Shown here piece after piece: positions 774-57,063 of a stretch of 64,000 nucleotides of DNA. How positions within the stretch are numbered: the first letter of the stretch is position 1; every line of letters starts with the position of its first letter. Position numbers and translations under genes: made by a program. The stretch covers positions 1-64,000 of IMG/VR virus record IMGVR_UViG_3300023196_003770. The stretch is one strand, 5' to 3'. A model generated the notes under the pieces. It worked only from the letters and a program-made list of their open reading frames with translations, was not told the origin of the DNA and did not search any database. This DNA comes from a virus.

Positions 774-1322
774 ATGAACTATATTAGTGTATGTTGTCAA
801 GAGTGTAAACTATTTTTTAATGCACCGGCTGGTGAAGTTAAAAGAGGTAATGGTAAGTATTGTTCTCGTAATTGTTCCTCTGCCGCTGTATCAAGAAAAA
901 ATAGAGATCGTTATAATGAAATAAATCAACCAAATGTAGAATGTGCATATTGTCATATAATGTTCTACAAAAATGAAACAAAGAAAAAAATATCTAGATC
1001 CGGATTATATTTTTGTTGTCGTGAACATAAAGACTTAGCACAACGTATCGGATCTGGAATAGACGATATCAAACCTTCTCATTATACAACTTCACCAACC
1101 AACTATCGTGAACATTATTCACGAAATTCATCAATGACTTCTTGTTTGCGTTGCGGTTATAACAAATATCCATCAATATTACAGATACATCACATTGATA
1201 GAAATCGTAAGAACAACGTTATGGAAAATTTGATTGTTCTATGCCCAAACTGCCATGAGGAAGATCATTGGCAAAATAAAGATGGAAAGTATGGCAATAA
1301 AAACATACCTTCCATTAAATGA
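774..1322 (+). CDS. HNH homing endonuclease with N-terminal zinc fingers
   Basis: A 182-residue protein. The N-terminal half has two Cys-rich modules (CCQEC then KYCSRNC; ECAYC then FCCREH) of the kind used as DNA-binding fingers in phage homing endonucleases. The C-terminal third is an HNH domain: a Cys pair CLRCG, the core IHHIDRNRKNN, then LIVLCPNCHEEDH, giving the catalytic histidines and a second Cys pair. It is one of only two plus-strand genes here and sits just upstream of tRNA-Ala in the opposite direction, the usual layout of a free-standing mobile endonuclease. Its 3' end converges on a minus-strand peptide gene. The family call is firm; the target site is unknown. Confidence 0.85.
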   Translation: MNYISVCCQECKLFFNAPAGEVKRGNGKYCSRNCSSAAVSRKNRDRYNEINQPNVECAYCHIMFYKNETKKKISRSGLYFCCREHKDLAQRIGSGIDDIKPSHYTTSPTNYREHYSRNSSMTSCLRCGYNKYPSILQIHHIDRNRKNNVMENLIVLCPNCHEEDHWQNKDGKYGNKNIPSIK

Positions 1323-6934: not shown

Positions 6935-7591
6935 ATGAAAATATTAAAACTAATAAACCAACATATTCCGATCTGGTCAATGCTTTGTGGAGATCATGCA
7001 TTGAAAGTAGTAGTTAACAATATTAATCCAAAACTGCTATCTGAACCCAATTTCCTTGATCCTTTAGAGAATAAATTAAGATTAGATATTTTTAGAGATC
7101 GTCGTGAATGGATATGGGCTTCAATGAAAGATAATGTAGCTTTTGCTCTGGTAGAAATTGACATTGAAGAACTAATGACATTCCACACATGTTTCTCAAA
7201 AGTTTCTTTTAAAGAATTTGTTGAAGAATATGCTAAAGCACATAAAAAGGGTAAAGGGTTTATTATAAAAAGACCGAGACACGGATCCGATTTAGAAAAA
7301 GGAAAAGAATCAGTTGAATATGTTTGCAAAGAACTTGCAACCAAAATAGAGGATGCATACTCCAAAATGACATTTGTATTAAAACCAAAAAATGTTCTTG
7401 ATCCTTATTTCACTAATGAAAAAAACATATACGTAGCCAGCAATCGTAGCTTAATAATGAAATGTAAAGACACTTCGAATATAAGAATAATGGATGCCAC
7501 TCATCGTTTAACTGCATATGCGGTTAGCAAAGCGAATAAAAAAAGCCCCCTCCCAAATAAACTTTATGCGTTCTATTGGGAAGAGGCTTGA
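6935..7591 (+). CDS. hypothetical protein, 218 aa
   Basis: One of two plus-strand genes. The outermost start is a TTG at 6926; the ATG at 6935 (MKILKLINQHIPIW) is more likely. Not recognised: mixed alpha/beta, soluble, Lys-rich, with DRREWIWASMKDN and a basic segment KGKGFIIKRPRHGSD. The last about 50 nt double as the tmRNA terminator read on the other strand, so the C-terminus (SKANKKSPLPNKLYAFYWEEA) is constrained by two functions. It ends 3 bp before the tmRNA 3' end. Opposite orientation hints at separate acquisition. Confidence 0.6.
   Translation: MKILKLINQHIPIWSMLCGDHALKVVVNNINPKLLSEPNFLDPLENKLRLDIFRDRREWIWASMKDNVAFALVEIDIEELMTFHTCFSKVSFKEFVEEYAKAHKKGKGFIIKRPRHGSDLEKGKESVEYVCKELATKIEDAYSKMTFVLKPKNVLDPYFTNEKNIYVASNRSLIMKCKDTSNIRIMDATHRLTAYAVSKANKKSPLPNKLYAFYWEEA
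7538..7589 (-). terminator. Rho-independent terminator of the tmRNA
   Basis: On the minus strand, just past the tmRNA 3' end, AAGCCTCTTCCCAA pairs with TTGGGAGGGGGCTT (minor mismatch) across a loop of about 24 nt and runs into TTTTTTT. It lies wholly within the 3' end of the convergent plus-strand gene. Confidence 0.8.
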
Positions 7592-7593
7592 AT

Positions 7594-7951
7594 TGGAGAT
7601 AGGCAGACTCGAACTGCCGTCCACAAGAGATCCAAATAATTTGTTGTATCACATAGCATAGCTCTTTTATAAATTACCCGCCATAAACTTAACCAAAGAG
7701 CAGATTGTATACGGCATGGTTTCAAAATTTAAGTCTTGGCAGTAGAAACTATCCCTACAAGACCGAGTTTGTTTAATATCAACCTAAAAGATCCTCAAAC
7801 GGCGTATCTTTTAAATTGCTAGCTGCGTTCAGGCTGCGAGAGCGTAAGAGTTATCGTTTGCACTTACTATTGTTTACGGTTTTAAACGGTCATAAACGCC
7901 CGTTGCTATGCAAATTATTCTTCCTTCCCGTGTCGAAACCAATTTATCCCC
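7594..7951 (-). ncRNA. ssrA: transfer-messenger RNA (tmRNA), one-piece
   Basis: A 358-nt tmRNA. The 5' end reads GGGGATAAATTGGTTTCGAC, the conserved tmRNA opening. The 3' end has a T arm (GGCAG-TTCGAGT-CTGCC) and TATCTCC, which pairs with the 5' GGGGATA to close the acceptor. The tag reading frame at 7829-7861 gives ANDNSYALAA then TGA. Its resume codon GCA is at nt 91, almost the same place as in E. coli (tag ANDENYALAA). tmRNA rescues stalled ribosomes with SmpB and tags the product for ClpXP-type proteases. No smpB is visible here, so host SmpB is presumably used. CCA is not encoded. It has its own downstream terminator. Confidence 0.95.
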
Positions 7952-8373: not shown

Positions 8374-8841
8374 TCATTCTAAAATATGGATTTTTTGCAG
8401 AGATATCCCACGGCGCTTCCACATATATCTACGCCACCGACGCATCAATCTACGTAGCCACCAAAAAGGACGACGCTGATATCCATCTTTCTTTTCATGA
8501 CAAGGAACACAAAGAGGCTGAACGTTATCTGACGTATTCGTACCTCCAGCGTTAATAGGCAAAATATGATCGAGCGTTAACTTATTCCGCCCTTTTACAT
8601 TACAAATGGCACAACGCCAGTTGCAATTCTTTAAAACTGTTAACCATTCACGAGTAGTAATACGTCCGGTATGATATCTCTTATTTCTCCTAGAACGATT
8701 ATTAGAACGTAGTCTTAGCCGTTCAGAATTCCAACATTCCCGGCATATATGTTCTGGAAATTGAGGGGCTGCCTCATGTTTACGTTTATCGCAAAAACAT
8801 AATTGACACGTATGTTCCGTTTTTCTAAACCAATAATACAT
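8374..8841 (-). CDS. HNH endonuclease
   Basis: A 155-residue protein. The N-terminal Cys-rich module (CQLCFC, HICREC) precedes a classical HNH domain: CAIC about residue 75, then LTLDHILPINAGGTNTSDNVQPLC with the catalytic His and Asn, then CVPCHEKK. A Trp/Arg-rich basic tail (WWLRRLMRRWRRYMWKRR) may grip DNA. The ATG overlaps the TGA of the upstream deaminase gene (TGATG). This HNH subtype (DHILP...N.Q.LC..CH) is typical of free-standing homing endonucleases and of McrA-type nucleases. Confidence 0.85.
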   Translation of the reverse strand: MYYWFRKTEHTCQLCFCDKRKHEAAPQFPEHICRECWNSERLRLRSNNRSRRNKRYHTGRITTREWLTVLKNCNWRCAICNVKGRNKLTLDHILPINAGGTNTSDNVQPLCVPCHEKKDGYQRRPFWWLRRLMRRWRRYMWKRRGISLQKIHILE

Positions 8842-12495: not shown

Positions 12496-12825
12496 TTAAT
12501 TATGCCTTTTACCTCTAATAACCATGGGGTTTTCTTTAACTATCCAGAACTCTTTAGGCAATGGAGGCTCATCACCTTCTTTAAACCACATAAGGCGTCT
12601 ACCACCTGTACTCTTAAATACTCCGATAATGGTTATCTCGCCTACGTGTATAAGATCATGACACGAATGACATACCACGGCAAGATTATGATTGTCATTT
12701 GTGCAACGTGGATCACATTTCGGAATGATATGATGGAAATTAAGAGCGGCACTTTTATCAAAACCACATATCTCACATTTATCTTTTATTAACTTTTCTT
12801 GATTAGCTTTTCTTCTGTGTTTCAT
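12496..12825 (-). CDS. HNH endonuclease, small
   Basis: A short HNH protein of 109 residues from the ATG at 12825 (MKHRRKANQEK); a TTG 15 bp further up would add five residues. Cys pair CEICG, the core LNFHHIIPKCDPRCTNDNHNLAVVC and CHSCHDLIH make a complete HNH zinc-finger nuclease. The C-terminal tail (KSTGGRRLMWFKEGDEPPLP) is unassigned. It sits between a terminator-like hairpin and the M15 peptidase gene, suggesting an inserted free-standing endonuclease. Confidence 0.8.
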   Translation of the reverse strand: MKHRRKANQEKLIKDKCEICGFDKSAALNFHHIIPKCDPRCTNDNHNLAVVCHSCHDLIHVGEITIIGVFKSTGGRRLMWFKEGDEPPLPKEFWIVKENPMVIRGKRHN

Positions 12826-12830
12826 AAATG

Positions 12831-12861
12831 GAAAACCCAAGAGACATTATATCCCTTGGGT
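12831..12861 (-). terminator. terminator-like hairpin
   Basis: On the minus strand ACCCAAGGGA-TATAATG-TCTCTTGGGT forms a 10-bp stem (one G-T) followed by TTTTC. It lies between the 108-residue gene and the HNH gene. The T run is short, so efficiency is uncertain. Confidence 0.5.
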
Positions 12862-17102: not shown

Positions 17103-18122
17103 TTATGCCTTTAGTATTTTTGATATCTTTGCCCTTAGCAAATAGTCCTTACTAAAAGGTGTAGCAGTTTCTAATAGGTAGTTAAACTGTGTTTGAGACA
17201 GCTCTCCAACGTCTTTATATGGCACAGGAATATCTAAGATATACACCGATATGTCATATTCACTTAACATATCCGCAATCTTTAGAACCTTATCTTTTGC
17301 GTCGGGATCTAATGCCAATATCACGGGCGTCTTATGCTTCGCTAACATAAGAAACAACTTATAATCTGTAGTTAAATCAGAACCTAAAAGACACGTGGCA
17401 TTTGAATTGCATTTAATCAAATCAAATGGACCCTCAACTATAGTCAATGGCTCGTTCCAATTAATATTAATCTCATTGAATATAATATCTTCCCTATGAA
17501 TATTAGGATTTAAATATTTGGGATTAACATCAGCATATGTTCTTCCAGTAAAATAATTTAAATCACCTTCGGAAGTAAATGATGGCATAATAACACGATT
17601 AACAAATGCCCGATCTTCTAACGCAATCCCAAACTTCCAATACCAAAGATGAGAAGGATCAAGGTCTTTAGTCTCCATTCCAAATCTATAAGCAATATAG
17701 TTAAGAGCCGCCCTATAACTGATCTCCATATTAATGTCATTGTTAGGCAATGCCAATAATTGAAATCCATTGGGAAGCTTAAACTCAACTTCAGTAACAA
17801 CCTTATTAACGTTATTGTTGTTGTTAACCTTAAGCTGATGCGTTCCTACAAAACGATTAAGATATTCTACGAAATATCCAGAATGAAATCTACGAATAAG
17901 ATCCGCAAGATTACGAGATTTATAATTGCAAACCCAGCATTTAACTAAATGACCGGTATCTGTTAGTTTAATAGCTAATTTCTTTTTATTATAAGAACCG
18001 CTTTTCTGAGATGAACATATAGGACAAACAAAATTTAAGTTTGCATTTTGACCAGAGCCGGTTATTTGGCAGGTACCAAATATTTTTTCAAGAAAATCTG
18101 CTAACTGTCCTTGTGTATACAT
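17103..18122 (-). CDS. DNA primase (DnaG/gp61-like)
   Basis: Synthesises RNA primers for lagging-strand replication. The ATG at 18122 (MYTQGQLADF) has a GAGGG ribosome site 6 nt upstream; a TTG two codons earlier is less likely. The N-terminal zinc finger has CPIC and CWVC (about residues 33-64). The toprim domain has IVEGPFDLIKC (catalytic Glu, about 223) and ALDPDAKDK (about 270). At 339 residues it matches T4 gp61 length. No helicase is in the window. A truncated copy of its first 17 codons lies 64 bp upstream (18186-18239). Confidence 0.85.
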   Translation of the reverse strand: MYTQGQLADFLEKIFGTCQITGSGQNANLNFVCPICSSQKSGSYNKKKLAIKLTDTGHLVKCWVCNYKSRNLADLIRRFHSGYFVEYLNRFVGTHQLKVNNNNNVNKVVTEVEFKLPNGFQLLALPNNDINMEISYRAALNYIAYRFGMETKDLDPSHLWYWKFGIALEDRAFVNRVIMPSFTSEGDLNYFTGRTYADVNPKYLNPNIHREDIIFNEININWNEPLTIVEGPFDLIKCNSNATCLLGSDLTTDYKLFLMLAKHKTPVILALDPDAKDKVLKIADMLSEYDISVYILDIPVPYKDVGELSQTQFNYLLETATPFSKDYLLRAKISKILKA

Positions 18123-18185
18123 GCCCAACCCTCATAACATATTCGTTTGCCGTTTATCAACCGTCCAACTTGTTGACGATTTAAT

Positions 18186-18239
18186 TTATGTTGAAAAGAT
18201 TTTAGTAATAAAATCTATCGCTTGACCTCTGGTATACAT
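18186..18239 (-). pseudogene. diverged 17-codon copy of the primase N-terminus
   Basis: Reads MYTRGQAIDFITKIFST then TAA; the primase starts MYTQGQLADFLEKIFGT. Eleven of 17 residues are identical, and many DNA differences fall in third codon positions. It begins at an ATG just after the stop of the methyltransferase gene. After its stop the similarity ends, and 60-odd bp of unrelated sequence lead into the true primase. It looks like the truncated 5' end of an older primase allele. Confidence 0.7.
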
Positions 18240-18240
18240 C

Positions 18241-18870
18241 TCACTTCTTCTTTCGAATTTTAACGTCTGTATTCCTTAGTATTTTTATCTGACCGGATCC
18301 ACTAGATCCAAAATTCTTGTTGCGATCCCAAACAAACCACGCATACTCAATACTATCAGTTCCCTTGCCATTAAATGACGGTCTATTAGGAAGAACATAG
18401 ATATCGGGAGTATATTGTCGGAGAAAATCTGACCGCTCACCACTACCCATGAAGTTAAGTCGTAATAACATACAAACATATTCTGGCTCCAACTTTATTG
18501 ATTTCTTTATAAACTCTAATGCTTTTGAAAATGGTGGGTTAGTGATAATAACATCATAATCTTTATTCAAAGGCGCATCCAAGAAGCTTTCTATATAAAC
18601 CCGGCTTGGGTCCACGGAAGCCTCTAAATCGGTTTTAAACCTATCCTGTAACTCAATAGCAGTCCAAGTAGGGGTTGTACCTAAACCAGCGTTCACAGCC
18701 CGTATAATAGCGCCGTCACCGGCTGCTGGCTCTAACCATCTTCCAACAGAACGAAGGGGATACGTATACGGAAGATTAACTTCTTCCAATAAACGATCAA
18801 CACACCAACTTGGGGTTGGATAATAATCGTTTGCTACACGCTTGTTAGAATTTTTTTTTGTTGCTGACAT
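18241..18870 (-). CDS. DNA N6-adenine methyltransferase
   Basis: A class I SAM-dependent DNA methyltransferase. ATG at 18870 (MSATKKNSNKRVAND) is preferred to a TTG 6 bp up. Motif I EPAAGDG binds SAM (about residue 47), and the catalytic DVIITNPPF (about 112) is the NPPF form used by adenine-N6 enzymes. It opens with YPTPSWCVDRLL, common in phage Dam-like enzymes. At 209 residues there is no separate target-recognition domain. It likely protects phage DNA from restriction or marks it for packaging or repair. It is coupled to the RuvC-like gene (TGATTATG). Confidence 0.8.
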   Translation of the reverse strand: MSATKKNSNKRVANDYYPTPSWCVDRLLEEVNLPYTYPLRSVGRWLEPAAGDGAIIRAVNAGLGTTPTWTAIELQDRFKTDLEASVDPSRVYIESFLDAPLNKDYDVIITNPPFSKALEFIKKSIKLEPEYVCMLLRLNFMGSGERSDFLRQYTPDIYVLPNRPSFNGKGTDSIEYAWFVWDRNKNFGSSGSGQIKILRNTDVKIRKKK

Positions 18871-54499: not shown

Positions 54500-56104
54500 T
54501 CACTTAATATTGATCAACTTGTTAGCAGGAGCTGGATTAATACCGGTAAGCTTCCAACGCTTAAGAGCACCGGTTTCTTTCCTTGTCTTATAATCTTCTA
54601 CACACTTTAACATCGTATCATGCCAGCTTTGAACCATATTTTCATACTTGAACTCATGGTCAAGATATTCAGCAGCCTTCTCTCTAAACTCTGCCTTCTT
54701 CTCAGGCGTCCAACCATATACTTCCATAAAAGCATCTGCCACTTGACGTTCCGTGCAATAGTCTTCAAAGATATAAGGAACCATTTGTGAACCAACCAAT
54801 GAACGCTTTGCTGGTTCAATAGCAACGCCGTATTGATAACCATTGCGATAATCTTCTGCTTGACGTGTTTCGCCACCGGTCTTAAGAGCAATGATTGGCT
54901 TGCCAACCTGTAATGAAATAAGAGTAGAAAGACCAAACCCTTCATTCTTAGCTATGTTAACACAAACGTCTGCAAGGTTATGCATAACATTCATTTGTTC
55001 AAATTGAAGACGATCATTTGAGAACCAAACGTTATCGTTTAATCCAAGCATATCAGACACGGCAAGAAGATTTGGACCTTCCATATCATTTGGATCTGTA
55101 TGCATGATTAGTACTGCATTACGGTGTCCTTCTTTCTTCTCAAGGTCATCAAGAAAGGTCTTCCAACCAAGAAGAACATCGTTTGGCATTTTGCGTGTAG
55201 CATTACGATTAATCCAAAGAGCCTTAAACCAGTCAGCTTTTGCGCCAAAGTTCTGTTGCTTAAGATGATTAATTTGTTCTTCTGGAAGAGGGTTATAAAC
55301 CTGCTTTGGGAATGTATGGGGAATGTAGTTAGTCTTCTCTGGGAAATGAGGTTTAACCATTTCAAACGTTTTATATGAAAGGCAATTGATTAGATCGGTG
55401 CTTTCATACCATGGGAAGTTAAATGCTGGATATGGATCATTATCCCAAACGTGCCAATAGACGATTGGGCATACTTGATGGATTTCATCTTCCATTTCCC
55501 AAAGCCACGTAAACTGACGAGGATCTGTAAACAAGAAAATTGCGTCTGGTTGTTCTGTAATAAGAAGCTGACGAATGAGTTCCTTGCTTCCAAAGCCGTC
55601 TACAGGCTTTACAATGAAGTCAGGATTGACAGCTATCGTATCATACTTTGCGTGCTTCATAGCGCCGCCTAAGCAGCGGAATGACCATTGACCGGTCTTG
55701 ATAAGACCATCAATCAGGAAACGTGCTTGGACGCCTACACCCGAGGGAGCTACATAACTTATATTATTTCTAATATAACCAGACTATATCATCATATGAT
55801 TATCATATGCTGGGCGCTGTCGGATCATTACCATAAGCTTTTAAGCTTTTAGGTTAACCGTAGTCGTTGAACCTTTCTCACCGTTTCCGGACAGAGACTT
55901 GGCTGCTGATTGTCCAATCATCATATTTTTTAAACATTCACGTTTGTCGTTTCCAACTGCGTTGTAGTATATGATACTTAAGGAGTTTCCAGCAATTCAC
56001 CCAGTTTTACATCCACTAACTCAACTCAATGGATGATCACTTAACGTGATTACTTTATATTTCTTTTTGAAATTGAATGCGGTCAAGAAATCATTATCAC
56101 TCAT
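54500..56104 (-). CDS. GT-B glycosyltransferase gene split by a group I intron
   Basis: Exon 1 is 56029-56104 and exon 2 is 54500-55749; the join gives 441 residues. Exon 1 encodes 25 residues from MSDNDFLTAFNFKKKYKVIT to LSDHP plus the first base of the next codon, and exon 2 continues SPSGVGVQARFLIDGLIKTG, restoring the Gly-rich nucleotide-sugar loop in frame. The rest of the protein has the two-domain GT-B build with NEGFGLSTLISLQVGKPIIALKTGGE as donor-binding region. Without splicing, exon 1 stops at TGA two codons into the intron. A Shine-Dalgarno AAAGGAT precedes exon 1. A second, truncated copy of exon 1 lies upstream at 56998-57063. Confidence 0.85.
55750..56028 (-). ncRNA. group I self-splicing intron, 279 nt
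   Basis: All four conserved group I elements occur in order on the minus strand: P AATTGCTGGAAA (55986-55997), Q AATCAGCAGCCAAG (55898-55911), R GGTTCAACGACTA (55861-55873) and S GATGATATAGTCT (55781-55793). P1 is CATCCATTGA/TTAGTGGATG, with the splice-site U pairing G as expected; exon 1 ends in that U and the intron ends in G. A 3-bp P10 (GAG with exon 2 CTC) is possible. No ORF lies inside. Splicing restores the reading frame, which is independent support for the boundaries. Confidence 0.9.
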
Positions 56105-56969
56105 GTATAAAATCCTTTATTTTTTTTAGCATATCTTCTTTATTTTTTTGCATTTCATAAGCCCATACTATCATGATAGAATAACCTGCTTCTTTTATTA
56201 TGTTTTTTCTTTTTTCATCTGATAACCATATATCTTCAGCAGTTTTGTTTTTTACTTTATGAAAGTAATTTGCCGGATATAACTTTGGGTTTGCGTGCCA
56301 ATAATCGCCATGATATTCAATTATCTTATTTGAGTCTGGTAAAAGTATATCTGCAAAATATTTTACTTCTTTTATTGGTAGTTTTACTTCCAATTCTGCT
56401 GTTGAATTAATGCTTTGAACATAATCAAAAAGCTCTTGTTGTGGCTTTGATATTTTTCTGCGTTGAGCCAACATATATGCATTAGTGACTCCATATTTTT
56501 TACTCAAAGACGTTTTCTGTTTATCTTTTTGAGCTTTTGTAAGGCAGCGCCCAAACATGGGATTATTAGTTCCGGAAAATAAAACTTTCATATATTCTTT
56601 TTTACATTCCGAGCTGCATACTCTATGCTTTGCGGTTTTTTTATATCTCGGCGGATAATACATCTCAGTATCACAACAAAAACATTTAGCTACAAAACCA
56701 GATTTATCATTAGTATGAGATGTCCATTTGCTATAGGCTCCAATTAGAACATAGTGTTTTGAAGCACATGAACGATTACAAAAATTTCCTTTTTTATATC
56801 TAATACGTTCAAAGCTTTTTTTACAACATAGACAAGTTCTTGTTTCTAATATATTTTTATTACTTTTTTCTCTTCTGTTTTTACGATGTTTTACGAGACA
56901 GGCACGAGAACAAGTCTTTTTTTGAGGATTTCCTTCAAATTCTTTACGGCAGATATTACATGTATTCAT
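56097..56969 (-). CDS. EDxHD/Vsr-like homing endonuclease with zinc fingers and NUMOD
   Basis: A 290-residue free-standing homing endonuclease. N-terminal zinc finger pairs (CNICRKEF, KKTCSRAC; CLCCKKSF, FCNRSC; CFCCDTEM, CSSEC) are followed by a NUMOD3-type segment (GTNNPMFGRCLTKAQKDKQKTSLS, about residue 140) that binds DNA. The catalytic domain resembles Vsr/EDxHD nucleases such as I-Bth0305I: LPDSNKIIEYHGDYWHANP about residue 215, then IWLSDEKRKNIIKEAGYSIMIVWAYE. It ends 7 bp inside the start of glycosyltransferase exon 1 and 68 bp from the intron. It is flanked on both sides by copies of the glycosyltransferase 5' end, which points to its insertion there. Confidence 0.85.
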   Translation of the reverse strand: MNTCNICRKEFEGNPQKKTCSRACLVKHRKNRREKSNKNILETRTCLCCKKSFERIRYKKGNFCNRSCASKHYVLIGAYSKWTSHTNDKSGFVAKCFCCDTEMYYPPRYKKTAKHRVCSSECKKEYMKVLFSGTNNPMFGRCLTKAQKDKQKTSLSKKYGVTNAYMLAQRRKISKPQQELFDYVQSINSTAELEVKLPIKEVKYFADILLPDSNKIIEYHGDYWHANPKLYPANYFHKVKNKTAEDIWLSDEKRKNIIKEAGYSIMIVWAYEMQKNKEDMLKKIKDFIHE

Positions 56970-56997
56970 ACACGATAAATATATGTGGAGTAAGAGT

Positions 56998-57063
56998 TCA
57001 CGTGATTACCTTATACTTCTTCTTAAAATTAAAAGGGGTGAGAAATGTGTTCTCTTCTGACAT
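56998..57063 (-). pseudogene. truncated second copy of glycosyltransferase exon 1
   Basis: The frame reads MSEENTFLTP-FNFKKKYKVIT then TGA. The real exon 1 has FLTAFNFKKKYKVIT followed by LSDHP. The match covers about 20 codons; differences are mostly synonymous third positions (TTT/TTC, AAG/AAA), so the copies diverged separately under selection. The sequence similarity stops at the ACGT of the last shared codons. A good TAGGAG site precedes the ATG. It now acts, at most, as a 21-residue leader peptide just before the endonuclease gene. Confidence 0.8.

Follow-up and report, generated by a model that had tools for sequence, protein, structure and literature searches.

A short open reading frame (ORF) lies directly before the primase gene of the window (the whole 64,000-nt stretch of viral DNA analysed), and its translation resembles the start of the primase. 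Which of the two gene starts is the native one, and how did a second come to lie beside it? The features at this locus are as follows, with coordinates relative to the window.

18241-18867, minus strand: DNA methyltransferase (methylase) gene (phrog_799), upstream of primase
18186-18239, minus strand: orphan stub ORF of 17 codons, MYTRGQAIDFITKIFST* (ATG at 18239, TAA at 18188-18186)
18239-18195, minus strand: native primase 5' end, i.e. the first 15 stub codons, as judged by comparison with relatives
18101-18194, minus strand: most likely a homing endonuclease gene remnant, in the +1 frame relative to the stub
18129-18133, minus strand: GAGGG, candidate primase ribosome-binding site (read from the sequence; function presumed)
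17103-18122, minus strand: intact primase gene (phrog_47), 339 aa
17937-18122, minus strand: replacement primase 5' end (codons 1-62), delimited by a drop in identity to relatives

The stub ATG at 18239 lies immediately behind the methylase gene, and the primase begins at its own ATG (18122) and opens with MYTQGQLADFLEKIFGT. The resemblance between the two starts, reported in the first-pass annotation, was confirmed: 11/17 aa and 32/51 nt are identical, and the pair is the sole tblastx self-match over approximately 2.4 kb (E-value: 0.001). Close primase relatives were fetched and five of these (L002, L003, L004, L005 and L025/L047) were compared. In each of the five, the methylase stop codon is followed at once by an intact primase opening with the stub sequence, MYTRGQAI(D/E)FI(E/T)K(V/I)FG..., which continues into a complete primase; in the endonuclease-free relatives L002, L003, L004, L005 and L025 the site is uninterrupted. 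Because five relatives start an intact primase with the stub sequence, the resemblance is not due to chance, and because they do so after the same methylase, the stub can be identified as the native start of the gene, the 5' end now on the working primase being foreign. The stub had been described as a diverged copy of the true gene's start, a description that was correct with respect to the resemblance but reversed the roles. At the corresponding place, nucleotide identity of the stub to the five relatives is 77-91%. The closest comparison, with L003, gives 15/15 identical residues and 4 nt differences, all of them synonymous, which argues that the stub is native and stayed under coding constraint until recently.

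Residues 63-339 of the primase are 77-89% identical to those of the relatives, and residues 1-62 are 43-48% identical. Among the relatives themselves the two parts are about equally conserved (74-86% for residues 1-62 and 76-89% for residues 63-339). At the nucleotide level, identity to the relatives is 54-60% across 18122-17937 and recovers at the CWVCNYKSRNL codons. These values mark the primase gene as chimeric, one of its ends deriving from a diverged allele, and the N-terminal replacement suggested previously corresponds to primase residues 1-62. When the donor primase 5' allele was searched for, the closest match was no more than 44%, and no primase relative was found in the bacterial and archaeal genomes scanned. 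The putative zinc ribbon of the primase comprises a CxxC pair at 33/36, within the replaced part, and a second at 62/65; as both pairs are retained, the enzyme is probably functional.

The stub might alternatively be a functional upstream ORF or leader peptide that regulates primase translation, since it keeps its native start context (GAAAGAAGAAGTGAGATG) and is probably still translated. We consider this highly improbable, because the same codons are the start of primase itself in the five relatives. A conserved leader peptide in related phages, which the first-pass annotation had named as evidence that would speak against its reading, was found in 0/5 relatives, none of which has a separate leader ORF. 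Furthermore, among the approximately 75 primase loci scanned, L057 alone has another stub, and there it is fused to an endonuclease.

The 66-nt spacer between stub and primase has no counterpart in the relatives. Its +1 frame, QHKLNRQQVGRLINGKRICYEGWACIHKDS, most likely encodes the final repeat of a homing endonuclease, stop codon included: HKLNRQQVGRLINGKRICYEGW at 18190-18125 is followed by ACIHKDS and by a TAG stop codon at 18103-18101, which falls within primase codons 7-8. A tblastn comparison tied this remnant to repeats in a GIY-YIG endonuclease located between a RuvC-like gene and a methylase in L021/L024. A repeat HMM was built from seven endonuclease C-terminal repeats of relatives, chosen by eye and with the remnant left out; in a six-frame search of the window, the remnant ranked first (23.0 bits, E-value: 9.7e-6; runner-up, 11.7 bits), and 0/20,000 shuffles reached its score. 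Both the remnant (E-value: 0.016) and the L021 repeat match phrog_925 (HTH DNA-binding), and the remnant matches the HTH/NUMOD type of phage endonuclease repeat, a terminal DNA-binding repeat. The tail peptides (31 aa and 23 aa) had no match in Pfam, a result that is weak evidence either way for queries this short, and the tail had none in phage genomes searched with tblastn.

Confidence in the motif alone as a sign of an endonuclease is lowered by a scan for NGKRxxYKGW, in which most matches belonged to a phage family of approximately 200 aa that does not resemble endonucleases. In this family the motif usually has 80-100 residues after it, compared with 7 in the remnant, and 7/7 complete proteins with the motif at most 15 aa from the stop codon carry endonuclease-type motifs on visual inspection (an eighth protein, truncated where its contig ends, is outside the seven). 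Members of the family (most of L202-L281) have two HTH repeats of the endonuclease-terminal type and no recognised nuclease domain. The earlier statement that no endonuclease remains between stub and gene therefore holds for the catalytic domain, none of which is left at the primase site, but not for the terminal repeat and stop codon, which are still in the spacer.

The GAGGG sequence sits shortly 5' of the primase ATG and is encoded by Glu-Gly codons of the endonuclease tail. It is likely to be the primase ribosome-binding site, and because these codons supply it, the tail piece was possibly kept for this function. The spacer could also be read as a translational bypass element like that of T4 gene 60, in which a hybrid primase would arise when ribosomes leave the stub at codon 15 (AAA ATC TTT) and land on codon 15 of primase (AAA ATA TTT). 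Although the codons on both sides are similar and in the same register, a hop is not required, because primase brings a start codon of its own along with a site resembling a ribosome-binding site, and we regard bypassing as extremely improbable. A search of Rfam identified neither a known RNA nor a group I intron at the primase.

A fuller arrangement is found in L057, taken from a 206-kb viral contig, in which a single ORF joins a primase N-terminus (MSSKFFTQGQAITFIEKVFDKGRLSNGG...IRTDNF; primase HMM, E-value: 6e-16) in frame with a GIY-YIG endonuclease (Pfam GIY-YIG, E-value: 2.7e-6; C-terminus ...ITEYKGWRYR*). A complete primase, which starts differently (MSHYTEGQFISFIQRSFGDG), comes next, its ATG overlapping the endonuclease stop codon. 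Over its first 30 residues this primase is most like L066 (19/27); beyond them, L064 and L066 are similarly close to it. The comparison of related primase loci called for at the outset thus revealed one with an endonuclease, of the GIY-YIG type, between stub and primase. The L057 endonuclease may itself be degenerate or decaying because the GIY half-motif is missing (the Pfam match begins at profile position 9). An intact endonuclease ahead of this very primase allele was found in no phage.

We think it very probable that the primase site records an episode of homing by end replacement, with the endonuclease later deleted or its tail alone captured. In such a pathway, a donor phage would have carried a free-standing homing endonuclease, probably GIY-YIG, directly upstream of and overlapping a diverged primase start. 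A putative cut near codon 15 of an endonuclease-free primase gene would have been repaired from the donor, importing endonuclease sequence together with the donor primase 5' end, and the imported stretch would have been resolved in the conserved CWVCNYKSRNL codons (62-72). The repair would have made primase complete again, with an altered start that presumably resists cutting, and left the first 15 codons of the recipient as a stub. The endonuclease would afterwards have been deleted, or just its tail captured, such that about 30 codons and the stop codon remain; this tail may have been retained as the carrier of the ribosome-binding site from which primase would be expressed (GAGGG). The displaced native end (stub, 18239-18195) would then persist on the far side of the former endonuclease. 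The scar of a lost homing endonuclease, a suggestion that gains from both the tail in the spacer and the stub-endonuclease-primase arrangement of L057, and the N-terminal replacement, originally offered as alternatives, look like one event. The possible degeneracy of the L057 endonuclease and the presence of the repeat in the approximately 200-aa family count against this interpretation, as do the negative searches for the donor allele and for an intact endonuclease ahead of this primase allele, and the choice by eye of the seven repeats behind the HMM.

The first-pass annotation also proposed that the process is recurrent in this genome, citing a glycosyltransferase gene with a similar architecture. 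Endonuclease loci elsewhere in the genome include the following:

57001-57063, minus strand: glycosyltransferase orphan stub, MSEENTFLTPFNFKKKYKVIT (tblastx E-value: 1e-6 against the gene start at 56104-56045)
56097-56969, minus strand: endonuclease gene between glycosyltransferase stub and gene, with homing/HNH endonuclease PHROG matches
55760-56053, minus strand: group I intron in glycosyltransferase (Rfam RF00028, 85.3 bits, E-value: 2.7e-20)
G000 69835-71255 (L019 5835-7255), outside the window: third locus, with 5'-end duplication around an endonuclease
774-1322, plus strand; 8374-8841, minus strand; 12496-12840, minus strand: three HNH endonuclease genes

The glycosyltransferase locus (window 55760-57063, minus strand) has the order 5' stub, endonuclease, gene start, group I intron, and so shares the stub-endonuclease-gene architecture; the intron is predicted to start no more than about 10 nt from where the duplicated 5' end stops. 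At the third locus, 54 bp from the start of the neighbouring gene (MTKYQLPLFEDPTLLPTG) recur unchanged on the flank of an antisense GIY-YIG/NUMOD3 endonuclease (G000 69979-71160). These two 5'-end duplications around endonucleases bear out the proposed recurrence. A hairpin resembling a terminator comes after the 54-bp stub. Around the three HNH genes, no convincing duplication of flanking gene ends was found. In L021 (2047-2972) and L054 (2160-2954), the 3' end of a RuvC-like gene is duplicated beyond a GIY-YIG endonuclease, and in L054 the displaced 3' end and the endonuclease form one continuous reading frame. Stub-endonuclease fusions at other genes, with the GIY motif intact, are present in L028, L043, L141 and L180, the cases in L028, L043 and L141 resting on short, position-specific matches.

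These loci bear on a further alternative, that of one-step illegitimate recombination with a phage whose endonuclease abutted its primase, the tail having hitch-hiked and the endonuclease neither having cut nor ever having been complete in this lineage. The left junction lies inside the endonuclease frame (here near its 3' end, in L057 near its 5' end), and such junctions are expected if one side was joined without homology. Chance joining does not, however, predict recurrent end duplication around endonucleases at unrelated genes, and the intact GIY motifs in L028, L043, L141 and L180 also speak against it; we consider one-step recombination unlikely.

The frequency of such duplications was surveyed in 65 non-redundant, independently fetched endonuclease loci chosen without regard to duplication, with p values determined against cross-locus pairs. 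Flanking duplication was detected at 6/65 loci at p ≤ 0.001 (0.1 expected) and at 13/65 at p 0.05 (2.6 expected). The controls were primase genes (0/75 at a score of at least 44), neighbouring genes (5/72 at a score of at least 44 and 2/72 at a score of at least 54) and the approximately 200-aa motif family that does not resemble endonucleases (0/52 at p ≤ 0.01). Because the neighbouring-gene control gave some high scores, survey cases scoring below about 60 are not trusted individually.

If read as homing by end replacement, the primase site resembles yeast WHO elements in mechanism. Yeast WHO elements home into FBA1 and replace its 3' end, the old end becoming a fragment, without splicing (PMC7282813). 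As in the primase case, the endonuclease travels with a replacement target-gene end to give a chimeric gene, the displaced native end is left as a fragment, no splicing is involved and the endonuclease can later decay (PMC7282813). In contrast, WHO replaces the 3' end of a nuclear gene and uses an HO/intein-type nuclease (PMC7282813), whereas the primase case involves a 5' end, a GIY-YIG-type tail and a phage, with cleavage and resistance being putative. Since its tail is an HTH/NUMOD-type repeat and the L057 and L021 endonucleases are GIY-YIG, and not of the HO/VDE intein family, the primase site would work like WHO without being a member. Mobile ORFs of fungal mitochondria carry foreign C-terminal ends for atp6, atp9, cox2 and nad3 (PMC3630166). 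In these ORFs, similarly, an endonuclease (GIY-YIG in atp9) is inserted along with a foreign gene end, in some cases continuing the host-gene reading frame, and the native end is displaced, but they differ from the primase case in affecting carboxy-terminal ends in mitochondrial DNA and in that the endonuclease is still present (PMC3630166).

Among phages, the T4-type Seg/Mob free-standing endonucleases are described, in the portion of a review that was consulted, as adjoining or lying within replication genes, with some T4-type insertions splitting essential genes (mobA/gene 60 and mobE/nrdA) (PMC2988022). The position next to or within a replication gene is similar to that at primase, but that portion mentions no stub or duplicated gene end for Seg/Mob (PMC2988022). 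In collaborative homing, as outlined in the accessible part of its description, an endonuclease lies beside the first exon of a gene bearing a group I intron (PMC10448857). The glycosyltransferase locus resembles this layout; the primase differs in being without an intron, and a duplicated exon is not described in that part (PMC10448857). The open-access passages searched contained no report of gene ends being duplicated on either side of phage endonucleases, and a prior description may exist.

In our judgement it is about as likely as not that end replacement accounts for many "free-standing" phage homing endonucleases, which would insert within the first or last codons of genes and bring a substitute gene end. 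On this view they would often be translated as fusions with the host-gene stub, with the substitute start at or near the endonuclease stop codon, such that an essential gene would be invaded and mended at once without an intron or intein. If homing by end replacement did occur at the primase, an odd orphan peptide can be attributed to a selfish gene that left its trace there. Selfish genes could then swap the ends of essential phage genes (primase, RuvC-like resolvase, structural) without splicing. The signature, a duplicated gene end beyond an endonuclease or a bare stub, is searchable and would predict insertion sites, cut sites and resistant alleles. Gene calls could also be corrected, since a captured gene start can appear as a short ORF ahead of an endonuclease or as an N-terminal extension of the endonuclease itself. 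Elsewhere in the window, this phage carries a tmRNA gene (7591-7951, minus strand; RF00023, E-value: 1.6e-42) and tRNAs at 11-82 and 681-755.
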